This document shows, piece after piece, positions 48,439 through 56,453 of a stretch of 64,000 nucleotides of DNA (positions are counted from its first letter, which is position 1; each line of letters opens with the position of its first letter). The notes under the pieces are model-generated. The model was not told where the DNA came from. It saw only the letters and a program-made list of their open reading frames with translations, and ran no database searches. The translations under genes were made by a program, and so were the position numbers. Where the stretch lies: positions 62,001 to 126,000 of the forward strand of contig NC_088941.1 in assembly GCF_033473495.1 (NCBI RefSeq), read 5' to 3'. The DNA is from Cercospora beticola. Its lineage: Eukaryota; Ascomycota; Dothideomycetes; Mycosphaerellales; Mycosphaerellaceae.

Positions 48439-50086
48439 ACAGTACGTTGCTCTGCTGCATATGCAATTGACCTGATGCACTGACACTTGACAGATGCTGT
48501 TGATTTTTGCGCATAGCGAAGGCGTTTGATGGACGAGCATGCATAGACATCCCAGCTCAGCATTTTTGGCGAAAGACGTTTGGCATTTCAAAACCACAAT
48601 CAATTCCTCTCAAGCTAATGCAACAGTCCGCCGTGGCACATGCAAAGGTCCCCTGCTATTCGATTGTCGTTGCAAGAAACGATTGCTGATGCGCTCTTTG
48701 TAGTTGTTTCGCTGCGAGATAGCACACGAGCGCCGGAAGCGCCGACCGCAAACATTTCGAATTGAGACGCAGATGCATCTCGACACGAGGCCCAGAACGC
48801 CAATCACAAACGAGGATCCGGCTTTGTTGGCGTGCATAAATCAGCTGTACGTCAGTGCGCCTTGTCCAAAATGATTGAAAGACGCTACACGTCTCCTACA
48901 CTAGACTCATTCTCAACAGCATTCTGTTCTCTTCTCGCCGGCTCTTCATACTAAAATCTCTTATCTACGTAGCGTAACCCGAATTTGGTGCCACTCCCGC
49001 ACGAACGCAACTGCACTATTCCCGACACAAGGATTCATAGCGGCTCCAAGTCAGCTCTTCGACACGCCTCACTTCGAAGGACACTTCAAGAGCAACATCC
49101 CCTTGACAGCCTGGGAACTCTACAGCAACCGGAACACAGTCTATACTAACGATTCGAATCCCTACCATACATGCGATGGTTCCAAGATCAAGAGGCGCCT
49201 TTCCATCCGTGTCTTCAAAACTGCGATGTTGTTGAAAGCCGTACCTGTATTTTCTCAGGCAATGAAGGAATTCAGAAGAGATTCCTCAATCATACCAGCT
49301 CTACTCGTCACGATCAATGGAGCTTCGACTTGCCATTTATACTATACGCAGACTGAGCAAGCAGAAATCTCTTTATACGAAGAATGTAGAGCATCATCCA
49401 GCCAGGTCAGGCAGCAGCGGGAAATGTCTCGTCCTCGCGCGGCCTCTTCGGAAGCGAGATTCGTTCTGCAAACTGAGAGCGAAAGCTTCAATAGGTGGCG
49501 CTCACCTCATCTGGTCCGTACGAGACTCCTGGGTGCAGAGGCCGGCTACAGGACCAGCTTACTAAATCAGATTGGGCAACCCTCCATGCGGAAGAACCAC
49601 TGAATTTCAAAGCTGTCCTCGACCGCGGGTTGAATCCGGGCTCCTCCAGTGGAGGGACATATACGCTTTCTGTCAGGCTGTCATTCTGCCACCAGGTTTG
49701 ACAACCCTCCAAGCGTAAGAGCGCCTGGACTTCGAAAGCATCGTCGAACTTTTGCAGAGTGCATCCACTGTCGCCGTCCGCCCAAAGCTAGTGAATCCCG
49801 CTTCTGTCGACATCTTATTGAGGCTGACGCGAGGCGTGTTCACCTTGGCCTGTTCACCACTTCGGATGGGCTCAAACAGGAGATACACAAAACACCCTGG
49901 TACTCCAGTGAACGGTCACTTCGCTGGCGAGTGAATCGGCATAGTAGCCGGTCATGTCTACCATTCTTATACGAGCCAGTATTCTTCTGCTCTTCATCTA
50001 CCCGCACCCAACTCCGGAAGCCATACCGACGCTACAGCAGTAAGGACCCGAACTACTGAATCCAACACTCAACCTCACTCCAAAAG
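48439..50086. other. Gene-poor region with an imperfect duplicated segment
   Basis: About 1.65 kb. A 48-bp unit at 49577-49624 recurs at 49702-49749 with about two-thirds identity by eye, and both copies read LHAEEPLNFKAVLD-like peptide in one frame. The surrounding frames are broken. This looks like a decayed gene with an internal repeat, but no family is recognised. Confidence 0.4.
49577..49749 (+). repeat. Imperfect 48-bp direct repeat (two units)
   Basis: Units 49577-49624 and 49702-49749 start CAACCCTCCA and share their alternating pattern to the CTCGACC/GTCGAAC end, with a 77-bp spacer. Confidence 0.5.
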
Positions 50087-51049
50087 ATGTCACAGAGCGT
50101 CACCAGCTGGGCAGACATCTGTCGTCAGGCCTGTGGCGAGCAACTTATCCAGGCTTACGGGCAAACGATGACTCAAGCCCGAAAGGCTTTCCTCGATCAG
50201 AATCTACATCTTCTAGTCTCTCTCGATGGAGAGGTGATCACCCGAGAGGCCGCTGCAGCCAAGAAGCCCACACTCCGCATCATGTCGCTCCCATTCGCTG
50301 TCCGAGAGCAAATATTGCAGCACTTACAAGAAGTCAAGACCGTACGCGTCTTTCTGCTGGGGCTCTATGGCGTACGACCAACTCCAATCCAGCTGCCCAT
50401 TACCGCCCGAGCAGGTGATCGGACACTTCGCCTGGAAACGATCCGCACAACTCTGCTTAACTCTGAGATCGAGATCCATTCTGGTCCCGCGAACCACCAA
50501 TTGCAGCAGTGGCTTGCGTCCCTTGACTTCTCATGCATTCCCCCGAACCTTAGAGACGGCTTCGACGTAGTGCGAAAGCTCTCTTTCCCGTACTTCAGTC
50601 GATTCCCTCATTACCTGCCACATATCACGTTGAATCAAGACGTCAATCTGATGAGAAAGTGCCAGAACCTCAAGCGAGTCAGTCTACACTTTGTGGCGAC
50701 AACGGTATTCCGGAATGACGGCAGCGGTATGCAAAAGATGGCGGACCAACTGGTACCAGAATATCATCTGAATGAGATGCTTGAGCTAGATGAGTTGGAG
50801 GTCTTGCATTTCTCTGGTTTCTGCAGCGACGAATCCGATGTTGGGGTACGCGGCCTCGCGCGCTGGTTCAAAGAGCAGTACGACAATCGCAAGGATCGAG
50901 GACTGCGAAAGAAGGAAGTCAAGGTGGTTCTTTCCTGCGGCGAGGTCGTCCAGCTTGGATTGAACGTTAGCTTGGGGGAGGTGGAGTGGTATGGGGGCTC
51001 CCGGACTGACTTGCGTGCCTCGAGTACGAAAACAAAACGCCCGATGTAA
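50087..51049 (+). CDS. Uncharacterised protein, intact member of a tandem pair
   Basis: A single exon encodes 320 aa. It starts MSQSVTSWADICRQACGEQL. Features shared with the next gene (51425-52251) are the SWADICRQA/TWANVCRQA start, DGFDVVRKLSFPYFSRFPHYLPHITLNQDVNLMRKC, and a C-terminal GLARWFKEQYDNRK. The pattern of hydrophobic strands resembles fungal proteins with F-box-like N-termini and leucine-rich backs (FAVREQILQHL could be an F-box helix), but the match is too weak to assign. There is no signal peptide or membrane segment. Confidence 0.75.
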   Translation: MSQSVTSWADICRQACGEQLIQAYGQTMTQARKAFLDQNLHLLVSLDGEVITREAAAAKKPTLRIMSLPFAVREQILQHLQEVKTVRVFLLGLYGVRPTPIQLPITARAGDRTLRLETIRTTLLNSEIEIHSGPANHQLQQWLASLDFSCIPPNLRDGFDVVRKLSFPYFSRFPHYLPHITLNQDVNLMRKCQNLKRVSLHFVATTVFRNDGSGMQKMADQLVPEYHLNEMLELDELEVLHFSGFCSDESDVGVRGLARWFKEQYDNRKDRGLRKKEVKVVLSCGEVVQLGLNVSLGEVEWYGGSRTDLRASSTKTKRPM

Positions 51050-51424
51050 TCCTGATGCCCAATGGCCGGCCAGAGTGCTCGAGATATCCAGTTCAGTCTA
51101 TCAGCTTTGATTAACACCTCTGCAGGCGTTTGTTGACATTGGTTCTGCTACACGATTGAGATCACAGAAATATTGTGTAGATCTCGCACATGCACTGCTT
51201 GGCACTCCCGGGTGAATGAGATTCTATATTCAGCAGCAGGAATGTCTGAACGTTGCCTCTCCATTCACCCCAGATACATTCACCAGCTCTCCTATATTCC
51301 AACAGCCTCGCTTTCAACATTCTGATCTTGTTTATTCTTCAACAAGAGGACTCGATCTTCAGCACGCCACACGATTTCCAATACAACAACACCTAATCTT
51401 CCAGCTCTATATACAGACCTCAAC
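51050..51424. other. Spacer between tandem paralogues
   Basis: About 375 bp with no supported ORF. It probably includes the promoter of the second copy; TATATACAGAC occurs about 15 bp upstream of its ATG. Confidence 0.4.
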
Positions 51425-52251
51425 ATGCCTCGACCAAACATTACCTGGGCCAACGTCTGTCGCCAAGCGAACGGAGAGCGCCTGGAGACCTCATACAGCA
51501 AAATCGTCACACCCGCACAAGCCGCCTCCTTGCGCAGCAAATTCGAAATCATGCTCCTGGATCCAGAGATTCGCCAACGCATCATTGTGTACGCTGTTCG
51601 TGCCGAATTCTACTCTGATCCACCAATCATAGCGGTTTTCCGTCCTGGACAAGCAGGCGGCCTTCTTCCTGCTCCGCCAGCTATCAACATGTCGACATTG
51701 ACTCGAGCTCGAGATCGGCAGCTGAGACGATCCGTTCAACACTCATGACGGTCGCACTGGAGGTGCACAGTGGATGGGGAAATGCGAGACTCCAGCAGTG
51801 GTTGAGCGAGCTGAGGCTCGCCGAAATCTCGAAAAACATGGCCGACGGCTTCGATGCCGTGAGAGCGCTGCGGTTCCCCTACTTCAGCAGGTTCCCGTAT
51901 CACCTTCCGCACATCACATCCAACGACGACATCAACCTGATGTTGAAGTGCAAGGGGCTGAAGTCAGTGGCTATCGCTTTCTACCCTGGCAGTGTGGTCT
52001 CCCTGTGGGGCACTGGGGTACTGGGACCAGAGCTGTCAGCTGACCAGCTGGTGCGAAACTATTATCTCGACAACATGCTCGGATTGAACGAGCTTGAGGA
52101 GCTGCAGTTCCTACAGTACTGCGGGGGCGATCCTTCGCTAGGCATTCCTGCGTTGGCGAGATGGTTCAAGAAAGAGTACCAGCAGCGCAAGGAGTCCGGT
52201 CTGAGAGTCAAGGATGTGCGGATCTTCCTGCCTGATGGTACTGAAGTTTGA
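51425..52251 (+). pseudogene. Frameshifted paralogue of the 50087-51049 gene
   Basis: The first reading frame runs from ATG 51425 to a TGA near 51748. The second frame, beginning before that stop, carries on to 52251. Protein similarity to the intact neighbour crosses the switch without a gap: RARDRQL in the first frame is followed by ETIRSTL in the second, where the neighbour has AGDRTLRLETIRTTLL. The shift is located near 51721 and equals one missing base (plus two missing codons' worth of length). No sensible intron covers it, since the shared residues reach both edges. It may be a young pseudogene, a sequencing error, or a product spliced in a way I cannot see. The rest of the copy lacks stops. 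Confidence 0.7.
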
Positions 52252-52553
52252 GCGAATGATGCAGGCGAGGACAGGTTGGTTCGTGGAGTATTGTGCCATT
52301 GAGTGCGCTGGCGGTGGACGATCCTCTGCTGCAAAGTATCGAATGCCAAAACACTTCGAACACCTGAATACCAAGAATAACACTTTGTTACGATTCTGCT
52401 CCGTCAATTAAAATGAATATCGTCATGCCGTTGCCACTTTTTGTACTAACAGTCTTTTTCAGTCCGATTTTCTTCATCCAAAAAGAAGCCACAACTTCAG
52501 TCAGCCATAAAACCATTGACGTTTCGAATTGAAACCACAACAACAAAAAGAGC
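52252..52553. other. Intergenic
   Basis: Short region between the pseudogene and the terminator of the tRNA gene. A-rich near its right end; no other element. Confidence 0.4.
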
Positions 52554-52559
52554 AAAAAA
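52554..52559 (-). terminator. Pol III T6 terminator of the tRNA gene
   Basis: On the minus strand six Ts follow the tRNA discriminator base after one spacer base, and a second T5 run follows. This suggests that the gene is still transcribed. Confidence 0.8.
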
Positions 52560-52560
52560 T

Positions 52561-52687
52561 TAGCTCGGATTAGTTTCGATCTAATGCCCTCCGGGTTATG
52601 AGCCCGGCGCGCTTCCGCCTGTGGTATGTTAGTTGGAGTTCAAGTGAATGTGTTGTTGAGAAGTGATACTCACTGCGCCACCGAGCT
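52561..52687 (-). tRNA. Initiator tRNA-Met (CAT) with a 55-nt insert in the D loop
   Basis: Removing 52619-52673 leaves a 72-nt tRNA, the length of fungal initiator tRNA. The acceptor stem is AGCTCGG with CCGAGCT, giving the initiator-specific A1:U72 pair. The D stem is GCGC with GCGC. The anticodon stem CCGGG/CCCGG has the three G:C pairs typical of initiators, around CTCATAA. The T arm is ATTAG/CTAAT around ATCGAAA, the eukaryotic initiator loop with A54 and A60. All stems pair with no mismatch. B-box GATCGAAAC is intact and a T6 terminator follows. The insert splits the D loop after A14, giving GGCGCA|GCGG, the D-arm sequence of the Neurospora initiator tRNA as I recall it. Without the gap the gene would not be recognised as one tRNA. 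Confidence 0.9.
52619..52673 (-). other. mRNA-type (GT-AG) intron-like insert within the tRNA gene
   Basis: The 55-nt insert begins GTGAGT, carries CTAAC at 52628-52632, 11 nt before the end, and finishes ACCACAG. These are the same signals as in protein-gene introns of this window (GTGAGT in ASF1 and the FAD gene; CTAAC or CTGAC boxes; lengths 49-70). It is not at the 37/38 anticodon-loop site where eukaryotic tRNA introns lie. Because it starts GTGAG, the A box reads TGGCGCAGTGAG across the boundary and remains close to consensus. Confidence 0.8.
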
Positions 52688-53690
52688 TGTAACAGCTTCA
52701 AGAAATGTTATTGGATGCCAAGCAATAACATCGACTACTATAAAGGCATCGATTCCGAAATAGAGTGCCGACATTGGAATGTTTGGTGAGTCATGTGAAC
52801 TGTGGAGCACAGCAATGCTGGAAATTTTGAGCGCGGAAGCGGTCGGCTTTGTTCGGTGCTTGGCGGATTTGATCGTCCTGTTTTGATCTTTTGCACTTCA
52901 CAGCAATTGCGTGCTACTGCTCGATTTAGAGATCGTGGATTGGGTCCGACGTAGCAGAGGCTTGTTCTGTCGTTGCAGTACGCCACAGGACCATTGGTAC
53001 GTGGAAATGTGCTTCATTTGGATTGGCAGGTGAAGGTCTTCGACGGCTTGATGAAACTTGTGGAGATAGATCGATCACGGCGTGTCCACACGCTTCAGAG
53101 GCCTGTCGACTGTAGAACGATGTTCATCGTGTTGCCCACACTATATCTTGTTTCTCGATAGCTGTGCAAGCCTACGAGGTCCACTACTGCCCGATCCTCT
53201 CAAGCTTATACTCGGCTCTCACATTGGAGCTTGCTGTCTTGTTGATTGTGTCCAAAAAGGCGCGGAAGCAGCTCCTTGGCCGGATGGACGAGGTACCTGC
53301 AGCTTTCATCCCGCCTTAGGAGCTTCTTCGTTCATTATCGTGGAAGACTCGCCTGCCATTGACGTCTCGTAGGCCTCGATGTCAAGATAGAGCAGAATTG
53401 ATAGAAGAGTAGTAGGCAAGTGGTGTTCTTGCTTATCAAAAGCAGCTTCCGCATTCGCCCAAGGCCGACGATCCTTCGCTCACCTCGGCAGCTCCCCTCC
53501 ATCGTGCCCTCCAACTCCAGCTCTAGGAAAGTCTAAAAAGCATTGATTGCATCGAAGGACAGCTTTCCAGAGGCAGTCCTCGCACCTCATCGTGTGGCTG
53601 GCTAGCATGACGTCCAGCTCGTAGTCGTCTTCTTCAACTCTCTCCCCTCCTCACCTCCACTCTCGCACACCTCCACCGCCATCTCTCACC
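52688..53690. other. Intergenic, no gene seen
   Basis: About 1 kb between the tRNA and the cytochrome-b5-like gene. The last 200 bp are pyrimidine-rich (CTC/TCC runs), as in leaders of highly expressed fungal genes. Confidence 0.4.
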
Positions 53691-55031
53691 ATGGCTCCCG
53701 CCGACAACCTCCGGAAACGCAAAACAGCCGCTGACGGCAACATCCCCTCCAAACGCGTCCCCGCCAAAACACCCGAAGAATACGACAACTCAAAAGAGAA
53801 ACGCGATGCTCAAGGTGTCGACCTCGAACCCAACATTTGGGTTGTAGCCTGGCTCGCATTATCCTTCATCAGCTTCCTTGTCGCCATCTTCTACTACAAA
53901 ATCGACAACCGCAATCACGGACCCGTTGCAGCATACATCAACCAGAACTACCCTTTCGTTGATCGCGCTCTAAACAACTACGCCTTAGGCAAAAAGCCCG
54001 CTCCGCTGTTCGGCGCCGCCGCCCACGAACACGATGGCAGCGAACATGACCACTCCCACGACAACTTCGACGATGCCACGCCTATGGACATCCCGGGTAT
54101 GGCAGATGGCGTCAGCGATCTTCTCTCCCTCACCGAAGCCGAGTTGAAAGCCTACACCGGCGAAGACAAATCGAAACCAATCTACCTCGCCATCAACGGC
54201 ACAATCTTCGACGTCTCCTCCTCTCCAGCCTTTTACGGACCTGGTGGTCACTACAATCACTTCACCGGAAAAGACGCAACTCGCGCTTGGGTGACGGAAT
54301 GCTGGGATACTGATGATCAATTCACTTGGCGTCTCGAGGATGTCCACCTCATGTTCATGCCTAAGTACCTCGACGAAATGCTCACTGCGGTCGCTGAGGG
54401 AGATTTCTCTGGAGATCTGGGCGCAATGGGTGCCATGCCGCAAGAGATGATGACGAATTTGGCGAGTAAAGCGATCGATCGCTTTGGAAAAGTCAGACCA
54501 AAGACAATTCAGAAGAGAAGAGAGGAGGATCGAAAGGAAGCGGATAAGAAGGTGCTGGAGACGCTGGATCATTGGTATAATTTCTTCTGGAATAACGACA
54601 AGTACAAGGTTGTTGGAAACGTGATTCGGGATGAAGAGGGAACGCCAAAGACTCCTCCGAAGCCGTGCGAGGAAGCAATGAAGAAGAGGCCGCTCAAAGG
54701 AGGGAAGCTGGAGTCGATGATGGGAAGTGTCGGGAGTTTGTTCCAGGGTGGTGGTCCGGCGATTGATCTTAGTGCTATGGGTGGCGGAGCTGCTGCGGGC
54801 AAGGATGGTGATGCGAAGAAGGGCGAGATGCCCGCTGCTGTGAGGGAGCAGATTGAGAAGGCGAAGAAGGAGGCACAGGAGAAGGGTGGACAAGCAGCAG
54901 GTGCTGCGGCTGATGCTGCGGAGAGCGTGAAAGAGAAGGTCAAAGAGGGAGCCAAGGGCGCGGCGGACAAGGTGAAAGAGGGCGCTGAGAAGGTCAAGCA
55001 GAAGGCCGAGGATGTCAAGGACGAGTTGTGA
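53691..55031 (+). CDS. Membrane-anchored cytochrome b5-like (MAPR/Dap1-type) protein with LEA-like tail
   Basis: A single exon encodes 446 aa. The N-terminal 45 residues are basic and charged; a transmembrane helix spans about 49-68 (IWVVAWLALSFISFLVAIFYY). The MAPR domain starts at about 147: LTEAELKAYTGEDKSKPIYL, then INGTIFDVSSSPAFYGPGGHYNHFTGKDATRAW, which is the heme-binding pattern of progesterone-receptor-like cytochrome b5 proteins. A His/Asp-rich spacer lies between helix and domain. The last 60 residues repeat an 11-residue-like pattern (VKEKVKEGAKGAADKVKEGA), resembling LEA group-3 desiccation proteins. Yeast Dap1 supports P450 enzymes in sterol synthesis; a similar ER role is likely but not shown. 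Confidence 0.88.
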   Translation: MAPADNLRKRKTAADGNIPSKRVPAKTPEEYDNSKEKRDAQGVDLEPNIWVVAWLALSFISFLVAIFYYKIDNRNHGPVAAYINQNYPFVDRALNNYALGKKPAPLFGAAAHEHDGSEHDHSHDNFDDATPMDIPGMADGVSDLLSLTEAELKAYTGEDKSKPIYLAINGTIFDVSSSPAFYGPGGHYNHFTGKDATRAWVTECWDTDDQFTWRLEDVHLMFMPKYLDEMLTAVAEGDFSGDLGAMGAMPQEMMTNLASKAIDRFGKVRPKTIQKRREEDRKEADKKVLETLDHWYNFFWNNDKYKVVGNVIRDEEGTPKTPPKPCEEAMKKRPLKGGKLESMMGSVGSLFQGGGPAIDLSAMGGGAAAGKDGDAKKGEMPAAVREQIEKAKKEAQEKGGQAAGAAADAAESVKEKVKEGAKGAADKVKEGAEKVKQKAEDVKDEL

Positions 55032-55519: not shown

Positions 55520-56453
55520 CTAGTGCACCATCATCTCTGCCTGGTGTGGTTGCTGAGATCCTCCTGCAAGCTTGTTGTTGGCACCATGTTGAGCAGCACC
55601 ATTCTCAGCGGGTGCATCGTCCATCTCCATGTCGTCACCCTCCTCTTCAGCCTCTTCCTCGTCATCCTCATCGTCTTCGCTCTCTGCTTCGAGATCTTCA
55701 CTGCCGGCGTTGGACTCCTCATCGTCGTCCTTGCCGTTCTCCACGCCTTCCATTTCAGCATCCTCGCCAGGAAGCTTGGCAGTTGCGCTCGCCTCGCCCT
55801 CGGCAAGAGCTCCTGCCGCGGTGGCATCCTCCTCCTCCTCTTCTTCCTCCTCGGCACCGTAGGCTGCCTCGTCGTCTTCCTCGTTGTCCACGTTTGGCTG
55901 CTCTGGCGGGAACTCACTAGGAGCGCTCTCCTCAGAGTCCCACTTGATCTGAAAGCGCGTGACACGAGGCTTCTCGGCGAGAATGGTTCGGCGAATCTTC
56001 TCGATTTCTGGCTTCGCTGGCGGGTCATCGTTCATGGAGGCGTCGACATATTCATTGTTGACATAGTAGCCCACACGCACGAATTCGCGGTCGTCGTAGG
56101 AGCAGGAGAGCAGGATGACGGTGACGCCGAGGATATCGGTGCTGGGGATGTGCTCTGTTCGTGGAGCTTCCGCTTCGAACACGAACTTGTTGACTCCGAC
56201 TGGGATAGGTCCGACGAGAAGGGAGTCGAGCTCTTGATCGTGTTCAGAACTACAAACGGTTGTCAGGAGCTGTGTAGTGAGGAGGGAATGAAAATGCGAC
56301 TCACGATGTGGCCGAGCCCACGTAGGTCAGCTTCCACTCCAGGTCCTTTTGCAGTGGCTCGAGACACTCAAAAGTGATTTCGAATTCGTACGGTGCGTTG
56401 AATGGCGCAGGATTGTTGCGCACGCTGACGTTCAGTATCGACACGGTCGCCAT
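55520..56453 (-). CDS. ASF1: Histone H3-H4 chaperone Asf1
   Basis: Asf1 binds the H3-H4 dimer and hands it to CAF-1, HIRA and Rtt109 during nucleosome assembly. Complement of 56305-56453 and 55520-56249, joined over a 55-nt intron, gives 292 aa. The splice restores [20 protein letters not shown], part of the highly conserved Ig-like core. Other core motifs are [60 protein letters not shown] and VTRFQIKWD. From about residue 155 the tail is strongly acidic with long Glu/Asp runs, as in yeast Asf1. The gene diverges from SRO7 with a 488-bp spacer. Confidence 0.96.

Follow-up and report, generated by a model that had tools for sequence, protein, structure and literature searches.

An interrupted initiator tRNA-Met gene

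The window, by which we mean the whole 64,000-nucleotide stretch of Cercospora beticola DNA analyzed here, carries an initiator tRNA-Met gene on its minus strand, running from 52687 to 52561 and spanning 127 nt unspliced (Table 1). Read directly from the sequence, the joined exons, AGCTCGGTGGCGCA/GCGGAAGCGCGCCGGGCTCATAACCCGGAGGGCATTAGATCGAAACTAATCCGAGCTA, give a well-paired initiator tRNA-Met of 72 nt with A1:U72, an acceptor stem of 7 bp in which exon 1 pairs 7/7 with 52562-52568, an anticodon stem CCGGG/CCCGG whose three loop-proximal pairs are G:C, the anticodon CAT (52598-52600), and A54/A60 (GATCGAAA); position numbers such as these follow what we take to be the standard tRNA convention. 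The exons are separated by an insert located after base 14, at the start of the D loop. A sequence-only reading made earlier had claimed that removing 52619-52673 leaves a 72-nt initiator with every stem paired and a terminator behind it, which was confirmed by direct reading and by ARAGORN. The signals it listed for the 55-nt insert (GTGAGT, CTAAC, and CACAG) were likewise found, with the branch A 10 nt from the intron end. Its D-loop placement also stands, with the strand now corrected to minus.

Table 1. Features of the window discussed in the text (positions counted from the first nucleotide of the window)
Feature	Position	Strand	Description or basis
Initiator exon 1, 14 nt, AGCTCGGTGGCGCA	52674..52687	-	5' acceptor strand, bases 8-9, 5' D-stem strand
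D-loop intron, 55 nt, spliceosomal-type	52619..52673	-	GTGAGT...CTAAC...CACAG
5' splice site GTGAGT	52668..52673	-	sequence
Branch-point motif CTAAC	52628..52632	-	branch A 52629, 10 nt before intron end
3' splice site CAG	52619..52621	-	sequence
Initiator exon 2, 58 nt	52561..52618	-	D stem 3' strand, anticodon arm, T arm, acceptor 3' strand, discriminator A
T arm / B box (ATTAGATCGAAACTAAT)	52569..52585	-	A54 and A60 of initiator tRNAs
T6 run TTTTTT	52554..52559	-	Pol III terminator, 1 nt past tRNA
ASF1 histone-chaperone gene mRNA intron, 55 nt	56250..56304	-	GTGAGT..CTGAC..TAG; reading frame and Pfam

ARAGORN called no tRNA in the unspliced window, and Rfam recognized only the 3' half of the unspliced gene, scoring 27.3 bits, below the gathering score of 29. 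Once the intron was excised, ARAGORN called tRNA-Met(cat) of 72 nt. When the spliced sequence was searched against the genome by BLAST, the match began exactly at query base 15; the predicted exon-exon junction is GGTGGCGCA/GCGGAAGCGC. With the 5' splice site at this position, a putative Pol III A box (TGGCGCAGTGAG, 52669-52680), as judged against the consensus, stays readable. Beside the tRNA gene, two adjacent plus-strand open reading frames (50087-51049 and 51619-52251) are alike by eye, apparently through duplication; neither gave a Pfam match. The window also encodes an Lgl-type protein that shares 98% identity with a cluster bearing the name of Cercospora berteroae, 94% with C. zeina, and 76% with Dothistroma septosporum, which places the genome in or very near Cercospora.

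An mRNA intron 3.6 kb away served as a local yardstick. It lies in the ASF1 histone-chaperone gene, whose downstream exon matches Pfam PF04729 (5.7e-48) and whose upstream exon we take to belong to ASF1. In size and type of signal it is the same as the initiator intron, and the tRNA introns described below resemble it in both respects, the comparison being with this single mRNA intron. The earlier statement that introns of neighboring genes carry identical signals was checked on this one intron, which reads GTGAGT..CTGAC..TAG.

The uninterrupted anticodon arm of the initiator occurs exactly twice in the assembly. The second copy (C8:2204304-2204426) has a 51-nt intron after the same base 14 with a different body, and the two matches returned by genome BLAST with the spliced query both begin at base 15, so both copies are interrupted. 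A third, initiator-like gene (C7:2749947 region), absent from these BLAST matches, has no D-loop intron and carries a 24-nt insert at 37/38; it has one T:T mismatch in the acceptor stem and a D stem unlike that of the other two copies. Following the proposal that all initiator genes be checked for the insert, then, the two close copies are interrupted and the third, initiator-like one is without a spliceosomal intron, so it would be too absolute to say that every initiator gene depends on the spliceosome. Near the third gene lies a tRNA-Ile-like gene whose anticodon is GAT.

At least 37 GT-AG introns in 30 tRNA genes

We then searched the assembly (36.07 Mb, 10 contigs), where counts from genome searches are lower bounds, and found at least 37 GT-AG introns spread over 30 nuclear tRNA genes, which belong to the following 20 tRNA species: initiator, Met-CAT, Val-AAC, Val-TAC, Thr-AGT, Pro-AGG, Ala-TGC, Ala-AGC, Lys-TTT, Leu-TAA, Leu-CAG, Leu-CAA, Phe-GAA, Cys-GCA, Arg-CCT, Arg-TCT, Ser-TGA, Ser-AGA, Trp-CCA, and Ile-AAT. 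Anticodons were read manually; ARAGORN agrees in 23/30 spliced genes and differs in 7/30, mostly because the register of the insert at 37/38 is ambiguous. A second intron is present in seven genes: Ala-TGC (L091), Leu-TAA (L095), Met-CAT (L043), Cys (L108), Ile-AAT (L064), Pro-AGG (L083), and Arg-TCT (L059). At locus L048, a second intron accounts for a seemingly unpaired 3' end.

The genes came to light by several routes. An Rfam tRNA search of the assembly scored 62 of 905 candidates and gave 44 matches, which we sorted into 15 in genes with an insert outside 37/38, 21 in which no ectopic insert was seen, 4 belonging to an odd tRNA-like family, 1 with a long anticodon-region insert, and 3 of organelle type on C2. 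Among the 15, Ser-AGA (L024) was recognized only by a later excision scan. Rfam with direct reading (14 genes, 15 introns) and BLAST (2 genes, 3 introns) make no use of splice signals, whereas CTAAC..AG patterns (8 genes, 10 introns) and the excision scan of fetched loci (6 genes, 9 introns) depend on them; 18/37 introns in 16 genes were therefore found without splice-signal criteria, and 19/37 in 14 genes were signal-dependent. Intron boundaries were set by eye.

The introns occupy many sites in the tRNA. Five follow base 4 in the 5' acceptor strand (Cys twice, Met, the Pro gene at L090, Arg-TCT) and 13 lie in the D arm or at its end (both initiators, three Val-AAC, three Thr, Pro, Ala-TGC, Lys, Leu-TAA, Leu-CAA). 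The anticodon stem holds one (Val-TAC), the variable arm two (Leu-CAG, Cys L108), and the T arm eight (two Phe, Trp, Arg-CCT, Arg-TCT, Leu-TAA, Ala-AGC, Ile). Two more are found at the border of T arm and acceptor (both Met) and five in the 3' acceptor strand (two Ala-TGC, Ser-TGA, Ser-AGA, Ile). The last, at 72/73 in Pro L083, is doubtful and may be due to chance, as the tRNA is already complete there. Examples of predicted exon-exon junctions are CTTAGC/TCAGGGGTAG for Thr and ACTGTG/TTCGATCC for Phe.

One candidate (L053/L105, C7:2835308 region) was left out of the 30 genes, having a T stem with 3/5 pairs and no clear anticodon; it has two GT-AG introns and a perfect acceptor stem and is possibly a decaying tRNA. 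Direct reading found no tRNA at L087, L093, L096, L100, L103, L106, or the site at which L094 itself was matched. Several other tRNA-like sequences were observed. The genes at L029, L034, and L045 (C5:2688687-2690096), L039 (C7:1262155-1263129), and L040 (C8:748572-749536) form a family with similar ends (GGGGCTGTGGTCCAATGGTAAGAT ... GATGCCAGTTCGATTCTGGCCTGCTCCA), anticodon regions diverse in sequence and length, and overall lengths of 91-201 nt. L020 (C9:314119-314263) and a gene about 1 kb away on the opposite strand are tRNA-like with anticodon-region inserts of 71 and 83 nt. At C2:3502591-3503121 (L015, L023, L026), within a 5.2-Mb contig, lies an AT-rich cluster of organelle-type tRNAs (Ile-TAT, Lys-TTT, and Leu-TAA), perhaps a mitochondrial insertion or a misjoin.

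Splice signals and tests against chance

All 37 introns read GT..AG, and for each of them only one register does so without altering the exon product. Their lengths fall between 51 and 61 nt (mean 54.3, sd 2.2). Introns of fungi typically have a CTRAY branch motif shortly before YAG; here, YTNAY was present in 37/37, in 26 of them as CTAAC, with the branch A 10-14 nt from the intron end. The commonest 5' splice sites among the 37 were GTGAGT (9), GTAAGT (7), and GTAAGC (5), and the 3' ends were CAG (26), TAG (7), and AAG (4).

ARAGORN called a tRNA in 30/30 genes after splicing, compared to 7/30 unspliced when inserts of up to 60 nt were allowed and 9/30 with inserts of up to 120 nt; two of the unspliced calls carry the anticodon assigned here. 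We also removed candidate GT-AG introns from 353 kb, comprising 105 fetched loci and the window. From 801 excisions, 38 tRNA calls were obtained with the junction inside an exon, where overlapping loci and alternative registers are counted separately, so these are not 38 genes; nor is this a genome-wide rate, since the loci were chosen for tRNA or B-box matches. The controls gave 0/1008 for reversed sequence and 0/970 and 0/884 for mononucleotide shuffles. Double excision yielded tRNA hits in 14/144 cases, against 0/193 in reversed sequence.

The search patterns themselves were not enriched. Patterns of CTAAC..AG followed by a B box matched 6 times against 10, and 20 against 63, in reversed controls; matches were judged singly by acceptor pairing and excision, and their counts carry no weight. 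A B-box-only pattern gave 190 matches against 201 in the reversed control; the first part of these matches served as a source of loci only. Scans of viral contigs for two of the tRNA exons gave no matches. Judged by their sequence, the tRNA inserts are introns of the spliceosomal class.

Conserved exons and diverged introns

Among 400 random pairs drawn from the first 28 introns, identity averaged 58% and reached at most 68%. Fungi of the Mycosphaerella type, which are related to this one, are known for introner-like elements and many recent gains of spliceosomal introns, and the sequence-only reading had pointed to the near-identical introner elements that multiply in such fungi. The comparison, made among the tRNA introns, did not support the introner idea: these introns are not near-identical to one another.

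We next compared paralogs. In ten comparisons, the spliced sequences (37/38 inserts included) were 86-100% identical and the introns 55-77%, with the introns inside the random-pair range in 8/10. The pairs above the random maximum, Val L041/L042 at 77% and Cys at 72%, look in their sequences like descendants of one intron each. Introns at the same position with diverged bodies occur in both initiators, three Thr-AGT, two Phe, and two Cys genes, and the mature exon halves are identical among the three Thr genes and likewise between the two Phe genes. Stem changes are compensated, G7:C66 in one initiator corresponding to A7:U66 in the other, and U5:A68 to C5:G68 in Cys, which shows that the tRNA fold is maintained. 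As these stems could form before splicing, they argue against dead genes more than for splicing.

Some interrupted genes have uninterrupted relatives, namely Val-AAC (L008), Ser-AGA (L009), and Ala-AGC (L022). Ala-TGC L036 is plain where L091 has an intron, and the 4/5 site that is filled in Met L043 is empty in Met L032; in both pairs the intron is the sole difference next to the site. When spliced initiator, Phe, Thr-AGT, and Cys sequences were used as BLAST queries against the assembly, no uninterrupted close copy was found, and all copies found of Thr-AGT (3/3), Phe (2/2), and Cys (2/2) are interrupted by GT-AG introns.

These comparisons bear on whether the interrupted genes are dead copies, with intact genes elsewhere supplying the tRNAs. 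The plain Val-AAC, Ser-AGA, and Ala-AGC genes fit such a view, as do the initiator-like gene with only a 37/38 insert and the incompleteness of our tRNA census of the genome. However, the four BLAST queries found interrupted copies only, exons have been kept while introns are random-like in 8/10 comparisons, paired changes preserve the initiator and Cys acceptor stems, and dead copies are not expected to retain inserts of 51-61 nt with intact splice signals. We rejected a pseudogene reading for the species in which BLAST found no intact copy, and consider it very improbable as an account of the whole set.

A second intron class at 37/38

ARAGORN reports inserts of the 37/38 type, 11-48 nt long, in 20/30 spliced genes. 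As delimited by ARAGORN, 0/20 of these can be read as GT..AG with a slide of up to 4, and none of the 37 GT-AG introns lies at 37/38, so two intron classes coexist in these genes.

The ectopic introns might instead be cut by tRNA endonuclease at a bulge-helix-bulge, as in Cyanidioschyzon merolae and nucleomorphs, and introns in the D arm, T arm, and anticodon stem do exist in some eukaryotes, according to PMC4090602 and PMC3978253. But the central helix of such a motif was found in 2/37 introns, with 1.5 expected by chance, and we rejected the motif on this count; a bulge-helix-bulge precursor had been named in the sequence-only reading as an outcome that would speak against it. Moreover, the uniform length of 51-61 nt, the GT..AG ends, and the branch motif are not known to matter for splicing by endonuclease, and the 37/38 inserts of the same genes lack GT..AG. 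Endonuclease cleavage of the ectopic introns is thus exceedingly improbable. Self-splicing was also dismissed: group I and group II introns have a ribozyme core of some hundred nucleotides, for which 51-61 nt is too short, and no Rfam intron family was among the 2 matches in window positions 50000-55000.

Signs of Pol III transcription and interrupted U6

In 27/30 genes, a run of four or more Ts begins no more than 60 nt past the 3' end, compared to 3259/20000 random positions in the same loci (16%). Inside the introns such runs are scarce (1/37, against 5.3 in shuffles; as low in 18/1000). Runs of five or more were absent from all 30 genes, and for the introns alone this is not significant (0 against 1.4, with 229/1000 shuffles as low). 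D-arm 5' splice sites often leave a string that looks A-box-like against the consensus (TGGCGCAGTGAG, TAGCGTAAGC), and several introns fall inside the A or B box, as read by eye against that consensus in few genes.

We also looked at other small RNA genes. U6 snRNA is a Pol III gene, and one copy here (L055, C7:2731470-2731677 region) contains three GT-AG introns (49, 50, and 52 nt long) that share the signals of the tRNA introns; a second copy (C2:3146896) is plain. The assembly has two full-length 5S rRNA matches (C8:1330931-1331050 and C9:602152-602271), few for a filamentous ascomycete, and these two showed no sign of introns.

Recruitment of the spliceosome is normally tied to Pol II, and it could act here on Pol II read-through transcripts of the tRNA genes and not on Pol III precursors. 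The first T run begins at least 35 nt downstream in 10/30 genes, which agrees with read-through. Against it stand the T runs close behind 27/30 genes, their rarity within introns, and U6, with three such introns here and, as the sequence-only reading had noted and PMC10484740 bears out, one mRNA-type intron in fission yeast. Overall, splicing from Pol II transcripts appears very unlikely.

A proposed path to the mature tRNA

Taken together, these data make it very likely that the insert in the window is a U2-type spliceosomal intron in a nuclear initiator gene, carried in a Pol III precursor and removed by the spliceosome, and that it is one of at least 37. The sequence-only reading had arrived at a spliceosomal intron in an initiator tRNA, either spliced or silencing this copy. 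That remains the best reading, and splicing is favored over silencing since the C8 copy has its own diverged intron, all copies found of the Thr-AGT, Phe, and Cys genes are interrupted, and 30 genes are affected.

We propose that Pol III most likely transcribes through the intron, with the 5' splice site keeping the A box readable and the T6 run ending the transcript. The spliceosome would then act in the nucleus, recognizing GTGAGT, CTAAC as the branch point, and CAG, and joining the exons as in fission yeast U6. The joined RNA would fold and be trimmed, and a 37/38 insert, where present, would be cut afterwards by tRNA endonuclease. This order, spliceosome first and endonuclease later, is suggested because an intron in the acceptor stem or T arm would get in the way of folding, and so of RNase P and 3' processing.

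For some of the tRNA genes, removal of the intron is probably essential; for Phe, Cys, and Thr-AGT this follows if BLAST missed no intact gene. It is likely that the spliceosome serves as an essential tRNA-processing enzyme in this fungus, with interrupted genes for at least 20 tRNA species, with many precursors needing two unrelated machines, spliceosome and tRNA endonuclease, and with all close copies found of Phe, Cys, and Thr-AGT dependent on the former.

Relation to known systems

To our knowledge, nuclear tRNA introns as a rule lie at 37/38 and are removed by tRNA endonuclease, with few algal exceptions. Such canonical TSEN introns likewise interrupt nuclear tRNA genes, and 37/38-type inserts are present in 20/30 genes here, but the GT-AG introns differ in position, length, end and branch signals, and in having bulge-helix-bulge motifs at chance level. 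The ectopic introns of C. merolae and the cryptophyte nucleomorphs share sites in the D, T, and anticodon arms with ours. According to PMC4090602 and PMC3978253, those of C. merolae use bulge-helix-bulge motifs, and the tRNA inserts of Guillardia are 3-24 nt long, many without a defined motif, whereas the introns here measure 51-61 nt and have splice signals.

Fungal U6 genes, including that of fission yeast, offer a close likeness, an mRNA-type intron in a Pol III RNA. However, U6 is a spliceosome component whose fission yeast intron lies near catalytic nucleotides, whereas tRNAs are not part of the spliceosome and their introns here occupy many unrelated sites in 30 genes. Spliceosomal introns are also reported in nuclear rDNA of ascomycetes and lichens (PMC11782384 and PMC8527467); these too are mRNA-type introns in structural RNA, though in rRNA made by Pol I and not in tRNA made by Pol III. 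Our literature search, with subscription papers and preprints outside its scope, returned no report of spliceosomal introns in tRNA genes, and we found no precedent for this class of host gene.

If our reading is true, tRNA genes lie open to spliceosomal introns here, and the spliceosome handles very short, highly structured RNAs, probably made by Pol III, with as little as 4 nt of tRNA sequence ahead of the intron. Splicing would then feed back both on itself, through the interrupted U6, and on translation initiation, through the interrupted initiator genes. As the paralogous tRNA genes give filled and empty sites, mechanisms of intron gain become testable, for example reverse splicing into abundant nuclear RNAs. 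The data also carry a warning that tRNA finders overlook or misname interrupted genes, as ARAGORN did in calling only 7/30 unspliced genes, or 9/30 when larger inserts were allowed. For the host fungus, the sequences indicate that the messenger-splicing machinery probably has to help make the tRNAs needed for translation.
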